A DNA stretch of 64,000 bases, from positions 1-64,000 of the forward strand of contig JAFGVD010000003.1 of NCBI GenBank assembly GCA_016938135.1. The letters are read 5' to 3'. This stretch comes from Coriobacteriia bacterium (GTDB lineage: Bacteria; Actinomycetota; Coriobacteriia; Anaerosomatales; Anaerosomataceae). Under the pieces are notes generated by a model, which was not told the origin of the DNA, searched no databases, and worked only from the letters and a program-made list of their open reading frames with translations. This document shows, piece by piece, positions 5,160 through 42,649 of the stretch. Made by a program: the position numbers and the translations under genes. Numbering within the stretch: position 1 is the first letter of the stretch; each line of letters begins with the position of its first letter.

Positions 5160-6569
5160 ATGGCGGGCCGCACCGAGGCGATCCTCGCGCGCAAGGGTGA
5201 GATCATGAAGCGCGCGCTGGGCATGGACTACGCCGAGTTCGAGCGCAGCCCCATCGCCTTCGACTACGAAGGTCTCATGGGCGCGCACGGCTACTCGCTG
5301 CAAGATATCATCGGCATCCAGCTGGCGGCCGGCGTGGGCTCAACGCCGCTGCTGGAGTTGCGTAACCTCACCGATCTCGTGCGTTCATACGCCGGGCCCG
5401 GTCACGGTGCGCGTATCTTCGTCAAAGACGAGGCGGCCAACATGGCTGGCTCGTTCAAGGACCGCCGCGCAAGCGTGAGCATCCACGTGGCAAAGGAGAA
5501 GGGCTACGAGGGCGTCATCGCCGCCACCAGCGGCAACTACGGTGCCGCCGTCTCCAGCCAGGCGGCACGCGCTGCGCTTAAGTGCATCATCGTGCAGGAG
5601 GCGTTCGACTCCCGTCACGTGGGTCAGCCCGAGATCATCGAGAAGTCGCGTATCTGCGAGGCGTTCGGCGCCGAGGTAGTGCAGCTTTCTGTGGGTCCGG
5701 AGCTCTTCAGCCACATGCTGGAGCTGTTGGATGAGACCGGCTATCTGGCCGCTTCGCTCTACTCGGCGTTCGGTGTGTCCGGCATCGAGACGCTTGGGTG
5801 GGAGCTTGCGCAGGAGATGACGGCGGTGACCGGGGCGCCTCCCACTCATGTGGTAGTCACGCACGCGGGCGGCGGCAATACCACCGGTACCGCACGCGGC
5901 CTGAAGCGTGCCGGCGCCACTACCGAGATAGTGAGCGCAAGCGTGGACCTTAGCGGCCTGCACATGGCGAGCGATCACGACTTCAACCGCAAGAGCTTTA
6001 CCACCGGGCACACGGGTTTCGGCGTGCCGTTCGCAACCTGGCCGGATCGCGCAGATGTGCCGAGAAACGCGGCACGTGCGCTGCGCTATATGGACCGGTA
6101 TCTCACGGTCAGCCAGGGCGAGGTCTTCTATGTGACCGAGGCGATGGCCAAGCTCGAGGGTCTTGAGCGCGGGCCGTCCGGCAACACCGCGATGGCTGCG
6201 GCGATGTCGCTTGCGCGAGACCTGCCTCGTGACGCTACCGTGGTGGTGCAGGAGACCGAGTACACCGGCGCGGGCAAGCACCACTGGGCGCAGCTCAACT
6301 TCGCGCGAGAGAACGGTGTGGAGGTGCGATCAGGCGACCCGGCGGACAACGTGCCTGGCAAGAGCATCATCATCCCCGAGCGTCCCGAGCAGATCCGCGC
6401 GAAGGACTTCGACCTGGGTAAGATGCGCCGCAGCTACGTGCGCAATGCGCTTGCGCATGCGCCTGAAGGCTACGTGCCCACCGCCGAAGACATCGTGTTC
6501 CTGGCCGAGGATGCCAACACCACGCCGGCCACGGTGGAGGAGATCATCGCCGGGTTGAAAAGCGCGTAA
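5160..6569 (+). CDS. ortB: 2-amino-4-oxopentanoate thiolase, beta (PLP) subunit
   Basis: Protein of 469 residues of the threonine-synthase-like fold-type II PLP family. The probable PLP lysine is K100 in AGSFKDRRAS, followed by the Asn-rich phosphate loop ATSGNYGAAVS and a Gly-rich segment THAGGGNTTGTARG. OrtB carries out PLP-dependent thiolysis of 2-amino-4-oxopentanoate with OrtA. Start ATG 5160 is one base after the ortA stop; the frame extends upstream inside ortA but the coupled start fits the family length. A hairpin terminator follows at 6598. Confidence 0.92.
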   Translation: MAGRTEAILARKGEIMKRALGMDYAEFERSPIAFDYEGLMGAHGYSLQDIIGIQLAAGVGSTPLLELRNLTDLVRSYAGPGHGARIFVKDEAANMAGSFKDRRASVSIHVAKEKGYEGVIAATSGNYGAAVSSQAARAALKCIIVQEAFDSRHVGQPEIIEKSRICEAFGAEVVQLSVGPELFSHMLELLDETGYLAASLYSAFGVSGIETLGWELAQEMTAVTGAPPTHVVVTHAGGGNTTGTARGLKRAGATTEIVSASVDLSGLHMASDHDFNRKSFTTGHTGFGVPFATWPDRADVPRNAARALRYMDRYLTVSQGEVFYVTEAMAKLEGLERGPSGNTAMAAAMSLARDLPRDATVVVQETEYTGAGKHHWAQLNFARENGVEVRSGDPADNVPGKSIIIPERPEQIRAKDFDLGKMRRSYVRNALAHAPEGYVPTAEDIVFLAEDANTTPATVEEIIAGLKSA

Positions 6570-27891: not shown

Positions 27892-29748
27892 CTAGACGAC
27901 GTCGGCCAGACCGAGGCGCTCGACCGTTTCGGCGGTGGGAAGACCGGTCGTCAGATCCCAGCCCATTGCCGTATAGAAGCTGTCGAGCGAGACGTCTATG
28001 TTCGCAACCTGTCCTTCGCCACGTCCATCGGGAGCAGGCTCAGTGGTGAGGCGTACGGGTAGGGTGTCGTCAGCACGCGTGAAGCCGAACTTCGCGTTCG
28101 CGAGACGCTCAAGGTCGATGACCCTCTCGGCGGCTTTGAGCAAGCGCTCCTTGTCCCAATCCGCACCTGTGGCGGCCGAGAGGAGCGCCGCGTACGTCGA
28201 TGGCTGGATAGCCAGGGTGATCACCGAGAAGAGGCACGTACCCAGGAGGTTGGTGGTCATCGAGAACTCCATGAACGGCTTGACCCACCACTGGTTGTCG
28301 TCATCCAGGAAGTCGATGTCGCCCTCGATACCCAACTCGGAGTTGCGATACGCGAACGCATCGACAACCGACGCGTAGGGACGCAGATGGTCGGCACCGC
28401 GCGGTGAGACCGCATGGCTGATGCCCTCGCCTTTGCTTGCGCGGACTCCGCAAGACGCCAGCTCCACGCCTTTCACCGTCATCACGTAGTCTGCCGCGTC
28501 TCCGCCCAAGGCCTCAGCCGCACGCTTTGATCCCTTCGCGAGCAGGTCGCCGATGCCGTCGCGACGTGCGATCTTGTCCAGCAGCACGGGGAGAACAGCG
28601 CCGTTGCCCCAGGAGAGATCCAGGCCGTCGGCCTTCTCGGCGGGGAGGATGCCCTTCTCCTGCCATTCCATCGCGGTGGCGATGACCTGGCCGGACGCGA
28701 TCGTGTCCAGACCGAGGTCGTTGCACAGGTGACCCGCTTTTGCGATCGCGCGGATGTCGTCTACCAGGCATTTTGAGCCGAAGGCACCCATCGTCTCGTA
28801 CTCGGGGCCGCCGCCATGGCTGCCGGCGAACGGGCCGTCCTTCACGGTGGTCACACGCCCGCAGGCAACGGGGCAGCCGGAGCACGCGTAGGGCTTCACT
28901 TCGAGGATCTCGTGGTACGCGGCGTGGCCGACCTTGTCCATCGTCTCGTCCCAGGTCGTCCGTCGCCAGTTCTGCGTCGGCAGTAGGCCAAGGGCGCTGA
29001 TCGAGTCGTAGAAGCTGGGTGTGCCAAAGGGCTTCATCTCGTCTTTGACGAACTCCTCGGACAGCAGCTCTTCACGTGCCTTCTTCGCAACCTCTTTGAG
29101 CCTGTCCGGATCCGCCGTGGGCAGCGCTCTTGTCCCGCGCACGATGATCGCCTTGAGGTTCTTGGAGCCCATGGCGGCGCCGCCGCCTCCGCGACCGGCT
29201 GCACGTTCGCCGTCCGTCATGATGGCCGAGAACATCACGCCGTTCTCGCCTGCCGGACCGATGGACGCGATCTGGAACGCCTTGCTGTCCACTGTGGCCT
29301 TGAGCGCGGCCTCGGTATCGGTCACGCCAAGTCCCCAGAGTTCGGCGGCGTCTTTGATCTGGATGACGTCGTCGTCGATGTGCACGTAGACGGGTTTCTC
29401 GGCACGACCGGTGAACGCGATCATGTCATAGCCGGTCTTCTTGAGCGCGGGCGAGAGATGCCCGCCCACGTTCGCAAGTCCCAGGCCGCCGGATGCGGGG
29501 GAGCGGAAGACAATGCAGGTCCTGCCCGAGGTGGGCGCGGCGGTCCCGGTGAGGGGGCCGGTGGTGAAGATCAGGGGCTGAGAGGGATCGAGCGGTGGCT
29601 TGTCCGTGTCCGCAAGATCCATGAAGCTGCGGACTCCGATGCCTTCACCGCCCACGTAGTCCTCGAACCATTCGTTGGGCACATCATGAGTTTGGATAGT
29701 GCCGTCGGAGAGGTTCACGAGCAACGAACGATGCCAGTAACCATCCAT
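27892..29748 (-). CDS. Aldehyde ferredoxin oxidoreductase (tungstopterin)
   Basis: Protein of 618 residues. Start ATG 29748 with AAGGAG 8 nt before. The N-terminal domain shows YVGGEGIGVRSF, TGPLTGTAAPTSGR, and GERAAGRGGGGAAMGSKNLKAI, the pterin-binding signatures of AOR. A CSGCPVACGR segment supplies Cys ligands of the [4Fe-4S] cluster. It oxidises aldehydes to acids with ferredoxin, for example aldehydes formed from amino acid fermentation. No partner subunit is adjacent, so a soluble homodimeric AOR is likely. It stands alone with its own terminator. Confidence 0.92.
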   Translation of the reverse strand: MDGYWHRSLLVNLSDGTIQTHDVPNEWFEDYVGGEGIGVRSFMDLADTDKPPLDPSQPLIFTTGPLTGTAAPTSGRTCIVFRSPASGGLGLANVGGHLSPALKKTGYDMIAFTGRAEKPVYVHIDDDVIQIKDAAELWGLGVTDTEAALKATVDSKAFQIASIGPAGENGVMFSAIMTDGERAAGRGGGGAAMGSKNLKAIIVRGTRALPTADPDRLKEVAKKAREELLSEEFVKDEMKPFGTPSFYDSISALGLLPTQNWRRTTWDETMDKVGHAAYHEILEVKPYACSGCPVACGRVTTVKDGPFAGSHGGGPEYETMGAFGSKCLVDDIRAIAKAGHLCNDLGLDTIASGQVIATAMEWQEKGILPAEKADGLDLSWGNGAVLPVLLDKIARRDGIGDLLAKGSKRAAEALGGDAADYVMTVKGVELASCGVRASKGEGISHAVSPRGADHLRPYASVVDAFAYRNSELGIEGDIDFLDDDNQWWVKPFMEFSMTTNLLGTCLFSVITLAIQPSTYAALLSAATGADWDKERLLKAAERVIDLERLANAKFGFTRADDTLPVRLTTEPAPDGRGEGQVANIDVSLDSFYTAMGWDLTTGLPTAETVERLGLADVV

Positions 29749-29869
29749 GCTGCAGCTCCTTCACTCGCGTGCTGATATTGCATAAAGCACCGGATCCCCT
29801 GTATGTCGTACATACCCTTACATGCGGGTACACTGGTTGGCACGGAGGGTTTTTCTGGAGAGGACGCCC

Positions 29870-30931
29870 ATGTCCGAGAAGGCCACCATCACCATCGATC
29901 TGGCCAAGATCACCGAGAACGCGCGCCGTGTCATCGACGCGCTTGGCGGGCGCGAGGTCATCGGCGTCACAAAGGTAACGTGCGGGTCTCCTGAAGTCGC
30001 TCGTGCGATGCTGCTTGGCGGCGTGAGCGGACTTGCGGACTCGCGGCTGGAGAACCTCGCCGGCCTTCGCGCGGCGGGCATCACCGCACCGTTGTGGCTG
30101 CTGCGCGCTCCCGTTCCTGCACTTGCCGAGAAGACCGTGAGCCTTGCTGATGTCTCGCTTGAAAGCGAGATCGAGACGGTGGTGGCGCTTGATGCTGCGG
30201 CCGGGCGTCTGGGCAGGTCGCACTCTGTCGTGGCGATGGTGGACCTGGGCGACCTGCGCGAAGGCATGATGCCCGGGGAGCTGCCGGCGTTCGTGAAGCG
30301 CGTCGAGGCGCTTCCCAACATCGTTCTTCACGGCATTGGTGTGAGCCTCACCTGTTATGGAGCCATCGTGCCCACAGCCGAGAACCTCGGCGAACTCATC
30401 CAGCTTACGCAGACTGCAGAAGCGCTCACCGGGCGCCATCTCAACGTGAGCGGAGGCATGTCGAGCTCGCTGGACGCGCTCGTGGAGGGCACGCTGCCAA
30501 AGCGGATGGACGGTCTTCGCATCGGCGAGAGCATCATCCTGGGCGTGAGCACCGTGACTCGAGAACCCATCCTAGGCCTGCACACTGACGCGATCATCGC
30601 CGAGGCACCCGTTATCGAGGTCATGCGCAAGCCTAGCAAGCCTCGCGGCATCAGCGCACAGGATGCCTTCGGCGGTCGGCCGGTCTTCGAGGACTGCGGC
30701 GAACGGTTGCGTGCTATCTGCGCTGTCGGCCGCCAGGATGCGCCTCCCGAGGGGCTGCGACCCCTGGATGCCGGCGTAGAGGTGCTTGGTGCCTCAAGCG
30801 ATCATCTCGTGCTGGATGTAGACGCGATGTCTACGCCGCCGCGCGTTGGCGACACACTGCGCTTCGTGCCCGACTACAGCGCGACCTTGCGGTTGTTCAC
30901 CTCGCAGTATGTGGACCAACGATTCATCTGA
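29870..30931 (+). CDS. orr: Ornithine racemase (PLP fold type III)
   Basis: Protein of 353 residues, start ATG 29870 (GGAGAGGA upstream). The N-terminal pattern TIDLAKITENARRVIDAL followed by GVTKVTCGSPEVARAML places the PLP lysine in GVTKV, as in YhfX/Orr members of the alanine-racemase-like group. L-ornithine must be racemised before OraSE acts on the D-form. Context with ord, ortAB and oraSE in the same window supports this over alanine racemase. It is divergent from the AOR. Confidence 0.87.
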   Translation: MSEKATITIDLAKITENARRVIDALGGREVIGVTKVTCGSPEVARAMLLGGVSGLADSRLENLAGLRAAGITAPLWLLRAPVPALAEKTVSLADVSLESEIETVVALDAAAGRLGRSHSVVAMVDLGDLREGMMPGELPAFVKRVEALPNIVLHGIGVSLTCYGAIVPTAENLGELIQLTQTAEALTGRHLNVSGGMSSSLDALVEGTLPKRMDGLRIGESIILGVSTVTREPILGLHTDAIIAEAPVIEVMRKPSKPRGISAQDAFGGRPVFEDCGERLRAICAVGRQDAPPEGLRPLDAGVEVLGASSDHLVLDVDAMSTPPRVGDTLRFVPDYSATLRLFTSQYVDQRFI

Positions 30932-31129
30932 TCTCTTCTCGGCAAATGCTCGCCGTATGAATGACCCAGCGTGAACGAGCCGTTCAGGCTTGGATAGATT
31001 CGCGCTGCGGCGCGTGCCTGCCTCCCTCCTCGGGTACCAACTGGATTACTCACGCTTCTAGGCTCGCAATCGCAGGAGGGGCGCGCCGTAGGCCGCGGTC
31101 AGCGGCGCATGGCACGTGGGGAGGCTCGT

Positions 31130-33394
31130 ATGCGAGGAAGAATCAGGCAGTTCGTTGCGCTGGTGGCTGTACTGGCGCTCATCGTTCCTGCAGCCGCCAT
31201 GGCTGCGGTGCCCAGAGATGTGGTGGACACACCGGGCTGGAAGGTGAAGAGCGACAAGCGCTCGCACCCGCTGGGGGACAAACAGGCCGACCTCAAGAAG
31301 CGAGCGGTTGCGGCCTTGCTCAGCGGCAAGGCGAGCGGTGGCGTCTACGAGGTTGAGGAAGGTGAGTTCGTAGAGCTTACGCGTGAGGGTGAAGGCGAAG
31401 TGTGGACCGTGCCCGGTGAGTTCGCCGACTATCTGCACAACTCCATTCCGGAGCCCGACCGCACCGTGGACAACTCTACGATCTGGGTCAGCGACTTCAG
31501 CCGGGACTACTATCTCGATCTGTTGTTCGCCGAGGGCGACGAGGCCAACTCGATGCGCGAGTTCTTCCTTGAGCAGTCCAGCGGTGCTTACACCGTGAAG
31601 GGCGATGTGACCGAGTGGGTCCCGGTTCCCGGCGACGCGGTGGAATACGATGACGGCGACCCGGGTCCCGGCACGGCCACCAACGTGTGGCAGTTCCTGG
31701 CGGACTCGCTCGACGGCTGGTATGACATGCAGATCGCGGCCGGGATGTCGGATGCGGAGATCGACGCATACCTGGCTGGATTCGACGTTTGGGACCGCTA
31801 TGACTTCGACGGTGACGGCAACTTCGATGAGCCCGATGGTTACATCGACCACTTCCAGAGCCTGCACTCCGGCGAGGGCAACGAGGCCGGCGGTGGCGAG
31901 CTGGGCGACGACTCCATCTGGAGCCACAGCTGGTATGCGTACTACACGTTGATTGGCCAGGAGGGGCCGATCGTCCCCAACCCTGACGACCCGACCGAAC
32001 CGCAGGAGAACTTCTACGGCGGTATCCAGATCGGGGACAGCGACTACTGGATCGGTGATTACACCATCCAGCCCGAGAACGGCGGCGTGGGCGTGTTCAC
32101 GCACGAGTTCACCCACGACCTGGGTCTTCCGGACCTCTACGACACCTCCGGCACCGGCGAGAACTCGACCGGTTTCTGGACGCTCATGTCATCGGGTTCG
32201 TGGCTCTCGGACAACGAGTACGATATCGGTTCCATGCCGAGTCATCTCGGTCCATGGGAGAAGCTGCAGTTGGGGTGGCTCAACTACGCGCAGACTGACT
32301 CCACAGCGCCTTCGGTACATACACTCGGTCCGGTGGAGTTCAACAACACCAAGGCGCAGGCGCTTGTGGTGAATCTGCCTGACAAGCTGGTTGAGGAGAA
32401 TATCGGAGAGCCGTACGCGGGCGAGTGGTTCTACTGGAGCGGGACCGGCGATGACCTGGACAACTACATGTACAAGGCCATGACGCTGCCCGCGGGTGCC
32501 ACCTTCACCGCGAAGGCGTTCTATCAGATAGAGCTTGACTGGGACTACGCGTATCTTGTGGTCTCCACAGACGATGGTGCCACCTGGGAGAGTGTGGAGA
32601 CGAACAAGTCCACCACCACCGACCCCAACGGTCAGAACTTCGGTTTCGGTATCACGGGTTCTACGAAGAAGTGGACCAGGCTCACTGCGGATCTCTCGGC
32701 GTACGCAGGAGACGTGCTGCTGGGCTTCAGGTACTGGACCGACGGTGCGATGACCGAGCCCGGCTTCATGGTGGACGACATCGCTATCACCGGTATGGCT
32801 GTGGATGGCGCTGAGAGCGAGGCAGACTGGACATTCGATGGCTTCAAGCGGACGACCGGCCACGAGTCTGGTCTGTATACCAACTACTACCTGGCCGAGT
32901 TCAGGCAGTACTGGGGCTATGACAAGACGTTGGCTAATGTCTACAATTTCGGGTTCTTGAAGGGCAAGGACGCGGCGGTCAACTGGGTGGAGCGCTTCCC
33001 GTATCAAGATGGGCTCCTTGTCTGGTACTGCGATGATTCGCAGGCCGACAACAATGTGGGCGTGCATCCCGGCAGCGGTTTCGCGCTACCCGTTGATGCG
33101 CACCCCGTGCCGCTGCTAAGGCCCGACAAGAAGGTGTGGCGCAACAGGGTGCAGACCTATGACGCGACGTTCGGTCTGGATCGCACCGAGTCGATCACGC
33201 TGCACTACAACAGCCGTGCGTCCTATATCCCGAAGCTTGCCGCGGTGCCGGTTTTCAATGACACGCTATCGTATTGGAGTGCGAGCAACCCCACCGGTAG
33301 TGTGATCACGCCGAATACGGGAACCCAGATAGAGGTTCTGGGTGTGAGCCGTGACAACATGTATATGGACGTCCGAGTGGCGCCGGTGAACTGA
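31130..33394 (+). CDS. Secreted M6-family metalloprotease (immune inhibitor A-like)
   Basis: Protein of 754 residues, start ATG 31130 with GGGGAGG 6 nt before. A Sec signal peptide ends near AMAA (residue 26). The zinc site is His325-Glu-Phe-Thr-His329-Asp in VFTHEFTHDLGLPDLYD, with the M6 extension DLYDTSG. The C-terminal half has a MAM/jelly-roll type domain as in InhA (AYLVVSTDDGATWE, DVLLGFRYWTDG). It degrades extracellular proteins or peptides, which would feed amino acid fermentation. A strong terminator follows. Confidence 0.9.
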   Translation: MRGRIRQFVALVAVLALIVPAAAMAAVPRDVVDTPGWKVKSDKRSHPLGDKQADLKKRAVAALLSGKASGGVYEVEEGEFVELTREGEGEVWTVPGEFADYLHNSIPEPDRTVDNSTIWVSDFSRDYYLDLLFAEGDEANSMREFFLEQSSGAYTVKGDVTEWVPVPGDAVEYDDGDPGPGTATNVWQFLADSLDGWYDMQIAAGMSDAEIDAYLAGFDVWDRYDFDGDGNFDEPDGYIDHFQSLHSGEGNEAGGGELGDDSIWSHSWYAYYTLIGQEGPIVPNPDDPTEPQENFYGGIQIGDSDYWIGDYTIQPENGGVGVFTHEFTHDLGLPDLYDTSGTGENSTGFWTLMSSGSWLSDNEYDIGSMPSHLGPWEKLQLGWLNYAQTDSTAPSVHTLGPVEFNNTKAQALVVNLPDKLVEENIGEPYAGEWFYWSGTGDDLDNYMYKAMTLPAGATFTAKAFYQIELDWDYAYLVVSTDDGATWESVETNKSTTTDPNGQNFGFGITGSTKKWTRLTADLSAYAGDVLLGFRYWTDGAMTEPGFMVDDIAITGMAVDGAESEADWTFDGFKRTTGHESGLYTNYYLAEFRQYWGYDKTLANVYNFGFLKGKDAAVNWVERFPYQDGLLVWYCDDSQADNNVGVHPGSGFALPVDAHPVPLLRPDKKVWRNRVQTYDATFGLDRTESITLHYNSRASYIPKLAAVPVFNDTLSYWSASNPTGSVITPNTGTQIEVLGVSRDNMYMDVRVAPVN

Positions 33395-34723: not shown

Positions 34724-34910
34724 GTCTACCTCCATACCGGGCCGCCTAGTGGCGGCAACCGCGGCTCTTCAGGGAGTATGTTCCCAAGCGAATCGCGCGG
34801 ATTCCGCTGCCAAGCACGGTGGTATAGTCGGAATATCAATTCATCCGGGTGCAGAGGGGCGCCGAGATGATCGCCTCCTCTAATACCTGGGCACATGGGC
34901 GGAGGAGACC

Positions 34911-35315
34911 ATGGACGAGGATCCCAAGGACGTCGCGGCAGACTCTGAAGAACCGAAGGTGTTCCGCATCGCGCAGATCGACACTCCTGGCAGCTCGAAG
35001 ATGGATCGGCGCAAGTTTGTCAAGGCGACCGTGGCAGGTGTCGGAGTGGCTGCGGCCGCCACGATGCTCTCGGGATGTGATCCAGAGCCCGATGACGAGC
35101 CGGCGGCGGAACCGATCGAACCGGTCGAACCGATGGAGCCCGTCGAAGAGGAGGCGCCGATCGCCGAGGAGCCCGAGGAGGAAGAACCCAGCGACGAGGA
35201 CAGCGACACCATCGGGATCATCTGCACGTGTGACACCGAAGGGTGCAGTTGTGTGGGGAACTGCACGTGCAACGCGGTCAGCACCCCGGGCAGCCACTAC
35301 TGGTACCCGAGCTGA
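34911..35315 (+). CDS. Precursor-like Tat lipoprotein with three CxC pairs
   Basis: Protein of 134 residues, start ATG 34911 after GGAGGAG. Residues 1-30 form an acidic leader. Residues 31-56 are an embedded Tat/lipoprotein signal: DRRKFVK, a hydrophobic stretch rich in Ala/Val, then lipobox MLSGC with Cys56. Residues 57-99 are a Pro/Glu linker. The tail 101-134 holds Cys105/107, Cys112/114 and Cys118/120 (three CxC pairs) and ends GSHYWYPS. It is the first gene of a seven-gene run with five radical SAM genes, as expected of a RiPP-type substrate. I infer that the tail is modified in the cytoplasm, then exported folded by Tat and lipidated. No known family recognised. Confidence 0.75.
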   Translation: MDEDPKDVAADSEEPKVFRIAQIDTPGSSKMDRRKFVKATVAGVGVAAAATMLSGCDPEPDDEPAAEPIEPVEPMEPVEEEAPIAEEPEEEEPSDEDSDTIGIICTCDTEGCSCVGNCTCNAVSTPGSHYWYPS

Positions 35316-35343: not shown

Positions 35344-36666
35344 ATGAGCGTCTCATGGCGACCGCTCGGTGATACCACCTTCCTGATCACGCGACAGTCC
35401 CGTCTGCCATTGCTGTATGCGCCACTGCAGGATCTTGTCATGGAGGTGAACGACGCCTACGTGCGCTGTTTCCAGGCTGCGTTGGACGGAGATGCGGAGT
35501 CTGCTCGAGCCATCGGAGTCGAACCAGGGATGATGGAGGCGTTCGCGGTCGTCTCGCCCAAGGTGCGCAAGAAGTTCGACCCGTCGTGGCCGGAAGCGTT
35601 CGAGCCCACTTCGGTCACGCTCTTCCTGACCCACAAGTGCACGCTGCGCTGCGCGTACTGCTACTGCGAGGGCGGCTCCGGCCGCGATATCGACTGGCCG
35701 GTGCTTGAGGCATCGGTTCTGTTCGCCCTGGAGAATGCGGTCCGTCTCGGCCGCGAGCTCACTGTCGCATTTCACGGCGGGGACGTGGGCGCGGTCTGGC
35801 CGCTGTTCCAGCGGGCCATTGAGTTCATAGAGGCAGCCGCCGCCCAGGCGGGCGTGAAAGTGACGATGAACACCGGCACGAACGGCTTCTACTCCGCGTC
35901 TCAGGCGGCCTACATCGCGGAGCACATGCACAGCGCCACCGTCTCGATCGACGGGTTGCCCGAGGTGCACGATCGCTATCGCGTGACGCCCGGGTCGGGT
36001 CCCTCGCTGGAGACGGTCCTGCGATCGGTGCGTATCTTCGAGGAGAACGGGCTTGCGTACACCATCAGGATGACAGTGACTGCCGAGTCGCTGCCGCTAC
36101 TGGCCGAGAGTGTCGAGTACCTGTGCGAGCACACCAAAGCACAGGTCATCCGTGCTGAGCCGATGTACTCACGGGGCCGTGCGAGCGTCTCGGAGCTGGA
36201 GACACCCGAGCCCCATGCGTTCGTCGAGGCGTTTCGCGAGGCAGGTATCGTCGCGCAGACCCGTGGCCGCCTACTCACCTATTCCGGTGCGCGCCCCGGC
36301 GGTGTCGTGCCGGCATTCTGCACCTATCCCAGTCCCACCTTCGGTGTCACGCCCGATGGTGATCTTAGCTGCTGCTACGAGGTCCTTCGCCCCGATGACC
36401 CGCTCTCAGGGGAGTTCTTTTACGGCCATGTCGAGGCGGACGGCTCGGCGATCTGTGTCGACCGCTCTCGGATCGCTGCCATCCGCAACGTTGCCGCCCA
36501 GCGTCGTTCGGCGTGCGCCGAGTGCTTCTGCGTGTTCTCATGCGCCGGCGACTGTGCGGCCAAAGCGTTCGACAGTGGCAGGCTTGCAGGTGAGATGTCC
36601 TCGCGCTGCGAGATCACCCGGGCGCTCGTGCTCGACATGCTTGAAGCCGCGCTTGGGGGTGCGTGA
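35344..36666 (+). CDS. Radical SAM/SPASM maturase 1
   Basis: Protein of 440 residues, ATG 35344 (28 nt after the precursor stop, GGGGGGCGAG before). Residues 1-85 form an N-terminal region that could bind a leader. The radical SAM cluster motif is Cys99-x3-Cys103-x2-Cys106 (CTLRCAYC), followed by a GGD segment. The C-terminus has a SPASM-like set of Cys (AFC, SCCYE, CAECFCVFSCAGDC, RCEITRAL) for auxiliary [4Fe-4S] clusters, as in peptide-modifying enzymes (sactisynthase/PqqE/AnSME type). It probably acts on the precursor. The gene overlaps the next by one base. Confidence 0.85.
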   Translation: MSVSWRPLGDTTFLITRQSRLPLLYAPLQDLVMEVNDAYVRCFQAALDGDAESARAIGVEPGMMEAFAVVSPKVRKKFDPSWPEAFEPTSVTLFLTHKCTLRCAYCYCEGGSGRDIDWPVLEASVLFALENAVRLGRELTVAFHGGDVGAVWPLFQRAIEFIEAAAAQAGVKVTMNTGTNGFYSASQAAYIAEHMHSATVSIDGLPEVHDRYRVTPGSGPSLETVLRSVRIFEENGLAYTIRMTVTAESLPLLAESVEYLCEHTKAQVIRAEPMYSRGRASVSELETPEPHAFVEAFREAGIVAQTRGRLLTYSGARPGGVVPAFCTYPSPTFGVTPDGDLSCCYEVLRPDDPLSGEFFYGHVEADGSAICVDRSRIAAIRNVAAQRRSACAECFCVFSCAGDCAAKAFDSGRLAGEMSSRCEITRALVLDMLEAALGGA

Positions 36667-37745
36667 TGGATACAGTCGCGATGATGTTCCAGCCGGAGTG
36701 CCTCACCGTGTTTCTCAGTAACCGGTGCAACCTCGCTTGCAGCTACTGTCACTCGGTAGCATCGGCTAGACGGGAGCCGCCACTCTCGAGCGAGGTCGTG
36801 GCCGATGCGGCCCGAATCGTCGCCCGGTCGTGCGCCGAGCGCGGAGTGCCTATGACGCTGGTGTTGCACGGGGGTGGCGAGCCGCTGTTGGACCGGGAGG
36901 ACGCGGCGCGCGTGCTGGGCATCGTGTGCTTGCAGGCCGAGAGTGCCAGGGTGGCGCTTAGCACCTATGTCGCCACCAACGGGGTTCTGCCCGAGGCGAC
37001 CGTGCGATGGGCTGCCGCCGGGTTCGATCTCATTGGCTTATCGTGCGATGGCCCAGCTGACGTGCAAGACGTGCAGCGCCCGCGCCGCGACGGCGGATCC
37101 ACATCGACGATCGTCGAGCGTACGGCGGCGATCTTGCGAGAGGGCGGTGCGCACTTCCACGTACGCGCGACTATCACAGCGGCCACGCTCACCAGGCAAC
37201 GAGACGTGGTGGCGTATGCCATCGAGGTGCTGAAGCCGGCCGAAGTGCGCCTGGAACCCGTGTACGACAACCCGTCCCGGGTGCCGGGTCTCATGGCCGA
37301 GGACGCCTCTGCTTTCGTGGAAGGCTTCTTGGAGGCCCGGCGTTACGGTGCGGAGCTGGGGGTGCCGGTGACGACGTCGTTGCTGCGGCCCGAGGAGCCG
37401 CACGGCCCCTACTGTAATGTGCTGCGCCACGTGGTGAACCTGGCACCGGGCGACTTTGCGACGGGGTGCTTTGTGGAGTCGCGCGCTCAAGGCGCGCTCA
37501 GGCGCGGCGTGCACATCGGCTCCGTGGGCATCTCGGGTCGCTTCGAACTGGACGACGCGCGCATTGCGGCGCTGATCGCCGTTTGTGGTCGCGTGCCGGA
37601 GGAGTGCATGGGCTGCCCCATCGAGCACGCCTGTTCGCGCGGCTGCCCGGACGTGTGCATCGCCATGCAGGACGCCGTACGCCTGCACGATACGTTCCGC
37701 TGCCGCGCTCAGCGGCTGTTGGCGGGAGAGGTGGCGCTCGCATGA
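36666..37745 (+). CDS. Radical SAM/SPASM maturase 2
   Basis: Protein of 359 residues. ATG 36666 shares a base with the previous stop; a GTG at 36663 is possible. The cluster motif CNLACSYC has Cys21, Cys25 and Cys28, and LHGGGEPLLD supplies the SAM-binding Gly motif. A SPASM-like C-terminus includes YCNVL, GCFVES, CMGCPIEHACSRGCPDVC and a final FRCRAQRLL. It lacks an N-terminal leader-binding domain, so it may act after maturase 1. Its end overlaps the third radical SAM gene by 4 nt. Confidence 0.83.
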   Translation: MDTVAMMFQPECLTVFLSNRCNLACSYCHSVASARREPPLSSEVVADAARIVARSCAERGVPMTLVLHGGGEPLLDREDAARVLGIVCLQAESARVALSTYVATNGVLPEATVRWAAAGFDLIGLSCDGPADVQDVQRPRRDGGSTSTIVERTAAILREGGAHFHVRATITAATLTRQRDVVAYAIEVLKPAEVRLEPVYDNPSRVPGLMAEDASAFVEGFLEARRYGAELGVPVTTSLLRPEEPHGPYCNVLRHVVNLAPGDFATGCFVESRAQGALRRGVHIGSVGISGRFELDDARIAALIAVCGRVPEECMGCPIEHACSRGCPDVCIAMQDAVRLHDTFRCRAQRLLAGEVALA

Positions 37746-39133
37746 GCCACACGACTCCCCATATCGACCCCGAAGAGGTGTACGTGCTCCCGCTCGCGGA
37801 CCGCTGGCTCGTCTTCGCGCCCGGGACCTGGAGCGTTGCCGTCGTCAATCACCTTGCTCTCGGCGAGTTGGCGCAGTGCTGCGAGCCGGGACACGTGGCA
37901 CCGTCGCTGGACTCGCTGGAGCTGTGGCAGGCGCTCACGATTCCCACGACCGACTCGTCCCGGCACCGCCCGCCAGAAGGTGGCAAGCTCGTCATCATGC
38001 CCACCCGGGCGTGCAACATCAGCTGTGTCCATTGCGACTTCGGCTGTCCCGATGCTCCGCTCACCGTGCTTGATCCGCGGCTCGCCTATCCGCTGATCGA
38101 CCGGGTCCTCGCGCAGGCGGTCCGCAATGGCGAGCCGGTCATGCGTGTTCACTTCTTCGGCGGTGAACCGCTCGTGGCGAGGCGGTCGGTGGAGGCGATC
38201 GTCGCCTACACGCGCCGAGCGTGCGCGAAGGCGCACATCACACCGTGGTTCGAGCTCACCACGAACGGCGTGTGTGGCCCGGATGCGGTGGAGTTTCTTG
38301 GCAATGAGATCGATTCTGTGGTCGTGTCGCTGGATGGGGACGAGGGGCTTCACAACAGCCTACGCCGGCATCGCGACGGGCGCGGGACGTATACGGAGGT
38401 GGCCGAGACGCTCCGCCAGCTGGGGCGCTACCCGTGTGAGCTGTGCGTGCGGATGTGCGTTACCGATCTGTCGGTGGGCGCCTTGCCCGATCTGGCCGAG
38501 AAGTTCTGCTCAGAGTTCGACCTCAGCGTGCTCGCGTTCGAGACGCTGGCTGAGACACTCAGGTCCACCGCGGCGGGGCTGTACGCGCCGAGCCCGTATG
38601 ACTTCGCGCTGAACTTCATGGAGGCTGAGGCTGTCGGTGCCGAGCACGGCGTCCGCGTTGTGCACGGGCCGTCCGAGCTCGAGGGACCGCGCTCGACGTC
38701 GTGTCCGCTGGGCACCGGTTCGCTCATGCTGTGGCCGGACGGCGCCATCACCGGGTGCTATCTGGAGCCCGAGCGGTGGCGTGCGCGCGGTCTTGAGCTA
38801 TCGTTCGGACATGTGGACGAGGCGGGTGCGGTGTATGTCGACGAGCGGCAGATCGCGAAGATCGCGAAGAAGCTGGAGCGCAAGCCGCGATGCGAGCGCT
38901 GCTTCTGTCGCTACACATGCGCGGGCGGCTGTCGCGTGGAGCAGACCCCGCCGCGCTGCAGCCGGTTCTACGACGAGCGATGCCATGCTATCCGCCTTAT
39001 CACGGCGAGTCGGCTGCTACTGAGTGTGGGTGCAACTGCGGAAGCCGCTGCGCTACTGGTGAACGAGATGGCCGCTGCGGGGTTGGCGTCCAATGCCGAC
39101 GACCGGCTGCGCTCGTGGGCCAAGGTCGTGTGA
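37742..39133 (+). CDS. Radical SAM/SPASM maturase 3 with long N-terminal domain
   Basis: Protein of 463 residues from ATG 37742. The first 85 residues form a domain with YVLPLADRWLVFAPG, resembling the leader-recognition regions that precede peptide-modifying radical SAM enzymes. The cluster motif CNISCVHC has Cys91, Cys95 and Cys98; FFGGEPLVA follows. The C-terminal cysteines (SCPLG, GCYLEP, CERCFCRYTCAGGC, CSRF, CHAIRL) give a full SPASM. The substrate is presumably the same Cys-rich precursor. An additional tail of about 45 residues follows the SPASM region. Confidence 0.85.
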   Translation: MSHTTPHIDPEEVYVLPLADRWLVFAPGTWSVAVVNHLALGELAQCCEPGHVAPSLDSLELWQALTIPTTDSSRHRPPEGGKLVIMPTRACNISCVHCDFGCPDAPLTVLDPRLAYPLIDRVLAQAVRNGEPVMRVHFFGGEPLVARRSVEAIVAYTRRACAKAHITPWFELTTNGVCGPDAVEFLGNEIDSVVVSLDGDEGLHNSLRRHRDGRGTYTEVAETLRQLGRYPCELCVRMCVTDLSVGALPDLAEKFCSEFDLSVLAFETLAETLRSTAAGLYAPSPYDFALNFMEAEAVGAEHGVRVVHGPSELEGPRSTSCPLGTGSLMLWPDGAITGCYLEPERWRARGLELSFGHVDEAGAVYVDERQIAKIAKKLERKPRCERCFCRYTCAGGCRVEQTPPRCSRFYDERCHAIRLITASRLLLSVGATAEAAALLVNEMAAAGLASNADDRLRSWAKVV

Positions 39134-39134
39134 G

Positions 39135-40070
39135 ATGGCGAATCTGTCCATCACACGACGGTGTGAGCGCGATTGTGCTTTCTGTTTCGCGGCCGAGGAG
39201 CGCCGTCGCGAGCCGCTCGACATGTCGGCCGAGACCTTCGAACGCGCGATGGATCTCCTGGAGCGCTCGGGTATTCCCGATGCGCGGCTGCTGGGGGGAG
39301 AGCCTACGCTGCATCCGGACTTCGCGTCTCTTTCGGATCGCGCGCTGGAGCGGGGCTTTGCGCTCACGGTCATGACTGGCGGCCTCGTGCCCGATGACGT
39401 GCTCGCATATCTGGCGTCGCTGCCTACCGATCACATGACCGTCTTCCTCAACGCCGCGACACCGGGCGTAGACGGAGATTCACTTGTCGGCGCGCAGGAG
39501 CACGTGTGCAAGACGCTGGGGGAGTGCGTAGAGCTCGGCGTAACGATTGTCTCGGCGGACACGGATCAAAGCTTCCTGCTGGAGATCATCGAGCGCCACG
39601 GCCTGCGTCGTAGCGTGCGCATCGGCGTTGCGCACCCTATTGTTGGCGGTGCGAACGCGAGTGTGCCCACACGCGACTTGCGTGGGGTGGGTGTGAGCAT
39701 CGAGGCGTTCGTGACACAAGCGGAGGCGCACGGGGTGAGCGTGGGTTTCGACTGCGGCATCACGCCGTGCATGTTTTCCGAGGAGTTCGCTGCGGCGCAT
39801 CCCGATGTTATCGAGAGCGTGGGCACGCGCTGCGGGCCCATCGTGGACGTGCTCCCCGAAGGCGATGCGATTGCGTGCTACGCGCTTGCGTCGCTGGTGC
39901 GGCTGCCACTCGATGGATACGCGACACGCCGCGAGTTGATCGCCACATTCACTGAGGCGCTGGGCGACGGGCCGCCCTGGATCTTCGAGGAGTGCGCGGA
40001 GTGTACGCACCGAGCGGCCGGGCGCTGCACAGGCGGTTGCCGGGCACGTCGGATGAACGGGGGCGCGTGA
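39135..40070 (+). CDS. Radical SAM enzyme 4 (short, SPASM-like tail)
   Basis: Protein of 311 residues, ATG 39135, one base after the previous stop. The cluster motif is right at the start, Cys10, Cys14 and Cys17 in CERDCAFC, followed by LLGGEPTLHPDF (SAM binding). The C-terminus has CGPIVDV, ACYALASLV and CAECTHRAAGRCTGGC, a reduced SPASM. The short N-terminus distinguishes it from maturases 1 and 3. The next ATG shares the last base of its stop. Confidence 0.82.
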   Translation: MANLSITRRCERDCAFCFAAEERRREPLDMSAETFERAMDLLERSGIPDARLLGGEPTLHPDFASLSDRALERGFALTVMTGGLVPDDVLAYLASLPTDHMTVFLNAATPGVDGDSLVGAQEHVCKTLGECVELGVTIVSADTDQSFLLEIIERHGLRRSVRIGVAHPIVGGANASVPTRDLRGVGVSIEAFVTQAEAHGVSVGFDCGITPCMFSEEFAAAHPDVIESVGTRCGPIVDVLPEGDAIACYALASLVRLPLDGYATRRELIATFTEALGDGPPWIFEECAECTHRAAGRCTGGCRARRMNGGA

Positions 40071-40990
40071 TGCGCTGGGTGCTGCCCTATATCGACCAAC
40101 CTCCGGAGTTCTGGGCCCGTGTGGCCGACGTGGTCGCGCCGGACACGGCGAGCGTCTACTTCCCCATGCCTGCGAGCCCCATCGGCTCCGGGCGTCCGCC
40201 GCTACGTGCGGAGCACCTGCAGGCGTTTCTCGGCGTAGATGGCGTTGAGAAGTCGGTGTTGCTGAACCCGGTCGTGCACGAGGGTCCGGCTGCACGCGCG
40301 TTCGCGATGGTCAAGCCATACGTGCGCGAGCTCGTCGAGGAGTTCGGTGTGGCCGAGGCGGTTGTTGGGAGCCTGGGTCTCGCGCGGTTGTTGCGTGAGG
40401 CGTTCCCGGAGCTTCGGCGGGCGGCATCAACTCTGCTCGACGTCCGTACGCCCGCGCAGGTCGTCTACCTGGAAGGTGTGTTTGATTCGCTCACTCCGGG
40501 CGGTGGCGTCATGCGCGACCTGCCCGCGCTGCGCGAGCTGCGCGAGGCATGGCCGCGCGCACTGCGGCTGATGGTGAACGAGGGGTGTTTGCCCGGCTGC
40601 GTCTACCGCACGCAGCACTTCTTCGAGATGAACTCGGCAGACCCGATGCCGGCGTCGCTGTGCGCGGGACTGCTGGAGCGGGAGCCGTGGCTGGTGCTCA
40701 CCGGCGCGTGGGTGCTGCCCCAGCACCTCGATCTGTTCGAGGGTCTCTATGATGAGCTCAAGCTGGACGGACGCGTGACGCTCGCCGAGCCGGAGCACTA
40801 CCTGCGTGTTTTGTCCGCCTACGCGCATCGTACGCCGCTTGATCTGGCCGAGATAGGCGGTGGCCCTGCAACCGCACCGGGTGTGCCGCCTATCAGTCGC
40901 GAGTTCTATGCGCATACGCTGACCTGTGCGAAGACGTGTGCGAGTTGCGACGTGTGCCGCGAGTACCTCGCGAACGAGGGGCGGCCGTAG
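40070..40990 (+). CDS. Peptidase U32-like protein with six-Cys cluster motif
   Basis: Protein of 306 residues, ATG 40070. A TIM-barrel-like body carries LRLMVNEGCLPGCVYR (Cys173, Cys177) and a tail CAKTCASCDVC (Cys286, Cys290, Cys293, Cys296). U32 relatives such as UbiU/UbiV, RlhA and TrhP bind [4Fe-4S] clusters through Cys and carry out oxygen-independent hydroxylations, so a hydroxylase-like role on the peptide is one option; this is inference from weak family resemblance. It is coupled between radical SAM 4 and the HemW-like gene. It could instead be a structural partner. Confidence 0.62.
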   Translation: MRWVLPYIDQPPEFWARVADVVAPDTASVYFPMPASPIGSGRPPLRAEHLQAFLGVDGVEKSVLLNPVVHEGPAARAFAMVKPYVRELVEEFGVAEAVVGSLGLARLLREAFPELRRAASTLLDVRTPAQVVYLEGVFDSLTPGGGVMRDLPALRELREAWPRALRLMVNEGCLPGCVYRTQHFFEMNSADPMPASLCAGLLEREPWLVLTGAWVLPQHLDLFEGLYDELKLDGRVTLAEPEHYLRVLSAYAHRTPLDLAEIGGGPATAPGVPPISREFYAHTLTCAKTCASCDVCREYLANEGRP

Positions 40991-40992
40991 CC

Positions 40993-42282
40993 GTGGAGGA
41001 CTCGCGTCGCGCATGGGAGCGGGCACGCGAACGCTATCCGGCTGACGCGCATCTGCCGCTGCCGAGATGGGCGACCCGCGGGCTACCCGACGGACCCGCC
41101 ATCGCGTGGGAGGAAATCGCGCGCATCTCGGCGGAACGCTCCGGAGCGATTTCGGTGTATGTGCACATCCCGTTCTGCGAGACGCGCTGCCCGTTTTGCG
41201 ACTGCCACGCCACGATTGCGTCGCGCAGCGCACGTGAAGCTGTCGATCACTACGTCGAGACGCTGACCAGCGAGATCGCGGCTTTCGCAGCACTTCCCGG
41301 TCTTGCCGAGCGACCTGTCACCACCGTACACTTCGGCGGCGGCACGCCGCTCGCAGTCGGTGCCGAGATGTTCGAGCGCGTGGTGCGCATACTGCACGAC
41401 TCCCTGGCCACACACAAAGCGACGGAGTGGGCGCTTGAGTCAACGTCGCGACTCCTCGACGACGCCCACCTCGCACTGCTTGGCGGGCTCGGCTTTACGC
41501 GCATACACGTGGGCGTTCAGTCGATGCAGCCACAGCTGCGACAGATTCTCGGCCGCCGTGAGCAGCCGCACAAAGTGCTGGAGCGCATTGCCGCATGCCT
41601 GGAGCACGGATGGGTGGTCTCGGCGGACCTGCTCTACGGCCTACCAGGCCAAAGTGCCGCTATGCTGCGCGAGGACATCGCGCTGCTTGCCCGCGCCGGC
41701 ATTCACGGCGTCTCGCTCTACCACCTCAACGCCGGGCCGCACAACGTGCGCTTCATGAAGCAGCACGGGTTGGCGGAGCGTGACGAGACACGGCTGCGTG
41801 AGGATTTCACGGTGCTTGCTGAGGGGGCCGCGCTGCTCGAGAAGCTTGGTTTCCCGCGCAACCACGTTACGCACTTCGCGCGGCCGCAGGACACTAACCT
41901 GTACTCGCGACACGCGCTTCGAGGCGAGGATCTACTGGCGATTGGCTCGTCGGCCGACGGTGTGATGGGGCCGTACTTCTACCGGCATGTGGAGTTGGAC
42001 GGCTATGGCAACGGGTCCTCACTGCTCGCCGGGGGCGGCGTCTACACGCCTACCGAGGAGCGAGCCCGGCCATTGGTGACGCGCCTGATGGCTGCTGAGG
42101 TTATGCCTGACGGCCTCGACGACGTTGCACTCGCGTTCTGCGCGGAGCTTGAAGCGGCGGGGTTGTTGGAGCGCGCGAATGGCGGCGGCGCGTGGCGCCT
42201 CACGACAGCGGGTTCCTGGTTCTCGGGTGCGATGTGCGCCCAGACATGGGGTCTTTACGACGACGCTAGAACCAGCCGATAA
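40993..42282 (+). CDS. HemW/HemN-like radical SAM protein
   Basis: Protein of 429 residues from GTG 40993, 2 nt after the U32-like stop. The motif VYVHIPFCETRCPFCDC has Cys62, Cys66, Cys69 and Cys71, the CxxxCxxCxC form of coproporphyrinogen dehydrogenase-like proteins; HFGGGTP and GVQSMQ follow, with HemN_C-like winged region near the end (EVMPDGLDDVAL). HemW relatives bind haem or methylate substrates with two SAM molecules. Its place last in the precursor operon makes a role in maturation or cofactor delivery likely, rather than general haem synthesis. Confidence 0.82.
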   Translation: MEDSRRAWERARERYPADAHLPLPRWATRGLPDGPAIAWEEIARISAERSGAISVYVHIPFCETRCPFCDCHATIASRSAREAVDHYVETLTSEIAAFAALPGLAERPVTTVHFGGGTPLAVGAEMFERVVRILHDSLATHKATEWALESTSRLLDDAHLALLGGLGFTRIHVGVQSMQPQLRQILGRREQPHKVLERIAACLEHGWVVSADLLYGLPGQSAAMLREDIALLARAGIHGVSLYHLNAGPHNVRFMKQHGLAERDETRLREDFTVLAEGAALLEKLGFPRNHVTHFARPQDTNLYSRHALRGEDLLAIGSSADGVMGPYFYRHVELDGYGNGSSLLAGGGVYTPTEERARPLVTRLMAAEVMPDGLDDVALAFCAELEAAGLLERANGGGAWRLTTAGSWFSGAMCAQTWGLYDDARTSR

Positions 42283-42649
42283 GCCCCAGTCCGCGGTTCG
42301 CGCATATCGTGAAGAAGCACTGCAGGCTCATCATCTCGTCCGCGTTGGTGGGCGATCCGGTGTAGCGAGTGCGCGCGTAGTCGTTGGTCTCGGCGAGCTT
42401 ATCGGGCGTGATCGCGTTGAGCTTGGCCGCCATCTCGCGGACGGTCTCGGGTGGTATCCACTCGGTCATCAGGCTTCTGTCGGTGACCTCGAGCACGACG
42501 TCGGCGTACACTTTGCCGCGGAACGACGCACCGTCACCGCTGAAGAGACCTCCGCACAGTTCGATTCCGGCGTTGAAGAACGCACGCTCGTCCTCTTTGG
42601 TGAGCACGACGTCGTCCGGCGAGCGCGACGCGTACGTGTCCAGTCCCAT
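42266..42649 (-). CDS. Uncharacterised small protein
   Basis: Protein of 127 residues starting MGLDTYASRSPDDVVLTKED at ATG 42649 with GGGGAGG 6 nt before. No signal peptide or known domain. Two Cys near the ends (ELCGG, FTICANRG). It overlaps the end of the HemW-like gene by 17 nt on the other strand, so the precursor operon ends here. Confidence 0.65.
   Translation of the reverse strand: MGLDTYASRSPDDVVLTKEDERAFFNAGIELCGGLFSGDGASFRGKVYADVVLEVTDRSLMTEWIPPETVREMAAKLNAITPDKLAETNDYARTRYTGSPTNADEMMSLQCFFTICANRGLGLIGWF

Follow-up and report, generated by a model that had tools for sequence, protein, structure and literature searches.

What does the open reading frame at the head of a radical SAM operon in this 64,000-nucleotide stretch of DNA (the window) encode: a RiPP precursor whose leader lies ahead of a Tat lipoprotein signal, or an ordinary exported lipoprotein? 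The frame at 34911-35315 translates as MDEDPKDVAADSEEPKVFRIAQIDTPGSSKMDRRKFVKATVAGVGVAAAATMLSGC..., then an acidic linker, then ICTCDTEGCSCVGNCTCNAVSTPGSHYWYPS and a stop. An earlier note had described a leader, a twin-arginine motif, a lipobox, a linker and three CxC pairs here, and its coordinates, its frame and every motif that it named were found in the sequence. The gene and its upstream region contain the following features.

34823-34828, + strand: -10-like TATAGT, from the aligned upstream regions of five homologues
34854-34864, + strand: conserved box GAGGGGCGCCG, from the same aligned regions
34901-34907, + strand: ribosome binding site GGAGGAG ahead of the ATG at 34911, read from the sequence
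34911-35315, + strand: precursor gene, 134 aa, stop included
34911-35003, + strand: residues 1-31, presumed maturase recognition leader, with KV[FY]RIAQ in 5/5
34956-34976, + strand: residues 16-22, KVFRIAQ in the leader, kept as KV[FY]RIAQ in 5/5 homologues
35007-35024, + strand: residues 33-38, twin-arginine motif RRKFVK (RR[KT]FVK in 5/5)
35067-35078, + strand: lipobox LSGC with the predicted lipidated Cys56 (lipobox pattern in 5/5)
35079-35222, + strand: residues 57-104, acidic, Pro-rich linker, by composition
35223-35270, + strand: residues 105-120, three CxC pairs (3-11 pairs among homologues)
35289-35312, + strand: residues 127-134, C-terminal GSHYWYPS (G[GS]HYWYP in 5/5)

The mature part of the window precursor is 30% D/E and contains no K/R. 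Its cysteines are spaced C105xC107, x4, C112xC114, x3, C118xC120. When residues 57-134 were shuffled 200000 times, the pattern C.C.{3,4}C.C.{3,4}C.C arose once, so this spacing is not a chance product of composition.

Precursors were found in 5 of 61 genomes at E <= 1e-6, the window's own included, and the other four share 78, 60, 51 and 50% aligned identity with the window ORF. For G002, the precursor was taken from the second ATG (L025:5296) of an ORF that opens at 5290. All five keep the leader core P-K-V-[FY]-R-I-A-Q, the motif RR[KT]FVKAT and the tail G[GS]HYWYP, and their lipoboxes read MLSGC, IVGGC, SMTGC, VLGGC and VLGGC. Homologues without the RR motif, the lipobox or the CxC pairs, which the earlier note had named as evidence against its reading, did not appear; all three elements are kept in 5/5. 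The mature parts contain 25-36% D+E and 0-1 K/R. Pair counts are 3, 3, 10, 10 and 11, so that CxC pairs are a shared property, as claimed, but a count of exactly three holds for only two precursors, the window's among them, and the exact spacing did not extend across the five. The invariance of the aromatic tail was confirmed by alignment, with HYWYP in every homologue. Since the pair count runs from 3 to 11 with leader and tail fixed, three pairs represent one state of a variable repeat. The long arrays repeat a hexad, C-x-C-[DE]-x-x, whose fourth position is D or E in 31/31 units; in the short arrays an acid follows the CxC pair in 2/6 units.

Translation from Met31 would give an ordinary Tat lipoprotein with no leader, and Met31 does stand two residues ahead of the RR in four of the five homologues. 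However, codon 31 of the G006 precursor is ATC (Ile31), and over codons 1-30 pS exceeds pN in 10/10 precursor pairs, one of which is nearly identical. In addition, GGAGGAG precedes the ATG at 34911, and the 20 bases ahead of codon 31 in the window gene showed no such site. A start at Met31 is highly improbable. Given the ATC codon and the excess of pS, residues 1-30 are, on codon evidence, translated and conserved as protein. The 30-residue N-terminal extension that had been called a leader is thus genuinely coding. Its PKV..RIAQ core is invariant, and the extension would act as the recognition leader for the maturases.

Upstream of the gene, the stretch 34823-34864 forms a weak hairpin, with z values of -2.06 and -1.09 for the two sequences folded. 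The GAGGGGCGCCG box lies ahead of an ATG in several genomes. In G012 the precursor ATG itself comes immediately 3' of the box. A shift of start site is therefore possible, as is a short upstream ORF.

Tat motifs and lipoboxes were assigned by pattern rules. All five precursors match the Tat substrate pattern, in which a hydrophobic segment comes after RRx-F-[LV]-K. The Tat-signal model TIGR01409 also matched all five at E <= 1 (best 6.4e-4), scoring the window protein at 16.3 bits, just under its cut-off of 16.7. Of the genomes tested, TatC was found in 6/6, including one that lacks the operon cassette, and LspA in 5/5. Both are general functions, so they permit the model and do not single it out. 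These signals would fit Tat export and lipidation of the precursor and make signal peptidase II a plausible leader-removing protease. Removal of an N-terminus by this enzyme has already been proposed for DybA and NedA, according to the available part of a preprint (PMC12636315).

The precursor heads a seven-gene operon, in which six genes on the same strand follow from 35344 to 42282 with overlaps or short gaps.

35344-36666, + strand: rS1, radical SAM/SPASM maturase, 440 aa; PF04055; PapB-like NF047865 at E 4.3e-27, below cut-off
36663-37745, + strand: rS2, radical SAM/SPASM maturase, 360 aa; family-model matches and invariant Cys
37751-39133, + strand: rS3, radical SAM/SPASM maturase, 460 aa; family-model matches and invariant Cys
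39093-40070, + strand: rS4, radical SAM, TIGR04317/PqqE-like; TIGR04317 9.5e-12 and PqqE 1.7e-11, both below cut-off
40070-40990, + strand: U6, distantly U32-like, 7 invariant Cys; PF01136 at 20.0 bits, cut-off 22.4
40984-42282, + strand: rS7, HemN/HutW-like radical SAM; TIGR04107 1.7e-56, below cut-off

Four other genomes of the family contain all seven genes in the same order. The CxxxCxxC motif and SPASM cysteines of rS1 are invariant in 5/5, and full SPASM cysteine sets are invariant in rS1-rS3, completeness being judged by the SPASM spacing. NF047865 (PapB) is the best match for rS1 and rS3, and the solved structure nearest to rS1 is 5wgg. Nevertheless, the PapA/PapB ranthipeptide model NF047865 gave 95.2, 63.1 and 93.6 bits for rS1, rS2 and rS3 against a cut-off of 340. 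The SCIFF model TIGR03974 gave 75.8, 50.4 and 77.3 bits against 425, the Cys-every-fifth (CefA/CefB) model NF038107 gave 43.0, 42.7 and 56.9 bits against 600, and the ChuW/HutW model TIGR04107 gave 191.8 for rS7 against 400. With scores far below the curated cut-offs of these named families, the maturases were filed under none of them. The closest models to rS4 are those of the tungsten-cofactor maturase (W-cofactor) and PqqE, and solved relatives of rS7 are 1olt (HemN) and 9p2u (NocN methyltransferase). The Pfam matches of rS1 include no PqqD-type leader-binding domain. Single-sequence structure models of U6 (pLDDT 36) and rS1 (pLDDT 43) were too poor for fold reading. G006 has an extra radical SAM gene (PF04055) between rS1 and rS2, at L023:6368-7630 (+), for which no NCBIfam match was found at E <= 1e-10.

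PF01136 was matched by 4/5 U6 members. U6 was rejected as an ordinary U32 enzyme (UbiU/UbiV, RlhA), as it scores 20.0 bits against 22.4 and its cysteine spacings, CX3CX20C and CX3CX2CX2C, differ from the U32 four-cysteine motif, given as CX6CX15CX3/4C or CXnCX12CX3C in the available text of PMC6747719. The same text places O2-independent hydroxylases in the U32 family. This makes U6 suggestive, but by score and Cys spacing it does not qualify for membership.

Our preferred reading, with a probability of about 0.58, is a radical SAM-matured, Tat-exported RiPP-lipoprotein hybrid whose leader lies ahead of the signal peptide, both being cut off by signal peptidase II. The six enzymes encoded downstream would act on the precursor, an assignment that seven-gene synteny and motif retention in five genomes support. 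We infer leader recognition, chemistry, export route, lipidation and function as follows. Maturases in the cytoplasm would bind the N-terminal PKVFRIAQ leader, which precedes the twin-arginine motif, and would modify the CxC tract, the HYWYP tail or both. The likeliest chemistry would be Cys thioether cross-linking by PapB/ScfB-like SPASM enzymes, together with further radical steps. After the modified domain had left, folded, via Tat, the general lipoprotein pathway would acylate the lipobox Cys, and a single cut by signal peptidase II would take off leader and signal peptide. What remains would be a surface lipoprotein, acidic, Cys-paired and anchored in the membrane, whose probable role is metal binding or electron transfer.

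Cys-Xn-Asp motifs with n = 0-6 are substrates of PapB (PMC9413430), so thioether rings within the CxC tract are chemically reasonable. A uniform PapB-type Cys-Asp/Glu link is doubtful because the acid present in every long-array hexad (31/31) is absent from most short-array units (2/6 have it). None of the characterised RiPP precursor families matched the precursor; the matches were to Tat-signal models and weak low-complexity ones.

The same arrays could instead belong to an unmodified, metallothionein-like Tat lipoprotein that holds metal or Fe-S through its CxC pairs, with the radical SAM operon making a separate small cofactor that the lipoprotein carries. The CxC count ranges between 3 and 11 over nearly constant enzymes, as in metal buffers, and an acidic mature part holding 0-1 K/R fits as well. 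Tat suits metal-loaded proteins, which also speaks for this alternative. However, it leaves the conserved stretch before the RR and the invariant HYWYP tail unaccounted for, and three enzymes resembling SPASM peptide maturases are encoded in the same operon. We consider it unlikely.

Within the preferred reading, modification may also, or mainly, fall on the invariant tail. Taken as the main target, the HYWYP aromatics would be turned by oxidation or cross-linking into a redox cofactor carried on the peptide, with the CxC tract serving as a metal or Fe-S wire. This would fit a tail that is invariant in 5/5 next to an array that varies, an rS4 nearest to the W-cofactor and PqqE maturases, and a U6 resembling U32 proteins, whose family has O2-independent hydroxylases (PMC6747719, available part). 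The resemblances of rS4 and U6 are all weak, though, and U6 does not have the U32 Cys spacing given in that source, which makes the proposal improbable. Still more speculative, and decidedly improbable, is a leader-dependent, many-step radical SAM RiPP with a Tat checkpoint. Here the maturases would hold the leader just ahead of the RR so that only modified, folded peptide is exported, and U6, as an O2-independent hydroxylase, would together with rS4 convert HYWYP to a redox cofactor that connects with a metal array of CxC pairs on the membrane-anchored lipoprotein.

The closest known counterparts of the hybrid are the DAG-RiPPs, RiPP-lipoprotein hybrids named in a 2025 preprint, with the MNIO products DybA and NedA (PMC12636315). 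Its authors anticipate short, leader-independent pathways and point to a competition between modification and export; nowhere in the text do the words Tat, twin-arginine or radical appear. As in DAG-RiPPs, a precursor with a lipobox signal peptide (5/5) is encoded beside modifying enzymes (cassette in 5/5), and modification is proposed to precede export, with signal peptidase II removing the N-terminus. Where those systems use MNIO enzymes, the present one has six different ones; it also adds an RR motif and conserved residues ahead of the signal peptide. The exit logic would thus be shared, and because the enzymes differ, the export route is probably different and the leader is separate, we regard the system as a variant on the DAG-RiPP theme. 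With ranthipeptides (PapA/PapB, SCIFF) it shares SPASM radical SAM maturases and many regularly spaced cysteines, but it has CxC hexads rather than Cys-X3-Asp, three SPASM enzymes and a lipoprotein signal. In NapA/NapD the epitope for the maturation factor overlaps the Tat signal (PMC3712460, available part). Binding near the twin-arginine motif, with export after maturation, is likewise proposed here; there a chaperone is paired with an enzyme, while in the present system the presumed peptide maturases would be paired with a small substrate rich in Cys. In a term search of a review of RiPP leader proteases (PMC10885120), Tat, twin-arginine, lipoprotein and lipobox were all absent, and no Tat-exported RiPP was found described in the titles and abstract openings of the open-licence papers that the literature searches listed. 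If the preferred reading is correct, a precursor that is routed to Tat, has conserved residues ahead of its signal and is served by six enzymes would be another way round the race between modification and export. The five precursors also constitute natural test constructs with 3 to 11 repeat units and nearly one enzyme set.

The U6 marker was found in 5/27 family genomes and 5/69 order genomes, within one family and four genera, and these are the same five genomes that have the precursor. Draws of 396 phylum genomes, neither of which gave a match in any of the four other cassette genomes, yielded no further cassette. Alignment A1 matched 27/396 at E <= 0.001 (best besides the window's own, 1.8e-6); these and the weaker rows of the precursor search were judged from their coordinates to be Tat or linker matches and rejected as homologues. 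Alignment A2 matched 5/396 at E <= 1e-5, those besides the window's own reaching at most 45 bits versus 462-698 for cassette copies. No relative was found in viral contigs. The sole match in the contig collection, L002, was rejected because the similarity is confined to the Tat stretch of a 371-aa protein, presumably a solute-binding protein.

The racemase gene near the cassette is present in 25/27 family genomes. In G006 the racemase and a Fic-like gene flank the cassette and are ~9 kb apart; at the cassette-free site G023:C33:62856-62920, the racemase and Fic-like matches are separated by 64 bases. The cassette lies between racemase and GSDH in G002 and G012, and these two genes are adjacent in the cassette-free G008. 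In G014 cassette and racemase are on different contigs. The cassette enzymes nearest to the window's are those of G014 (75-87% identity, versus 60-69% for the others), whereas the racemase is 72% identical in G014 and 78% in G006. The cassette-free sites and this mismatch suggest gain and loss of the cassette and, probably, its horizontal transfer as a unit. A link to the neighbouring GSDH lipoprotein was rejected, as PF07995 is found in 43/61 relatives and lies beside the racemase where the cassette is missing (for example in G008); for the same reasons, the racemase-GSDH neighbourhood looks ancestral.

Elsewhere in the window, an aldehyde ferredoxin oxidoreductase adjoins an ornithine-racemase-like gene (27892-30931; NF040742, below cut-off), and the gene separating racemase from GSDH (31109-33394) encodes an immune inhibitor A-like M6 metalloprotease that has MAM and VEG domains. 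A 127-aa ORF with no family (42266-42649, - strand) flanks the cassette in G014 as well, at 83% identity.
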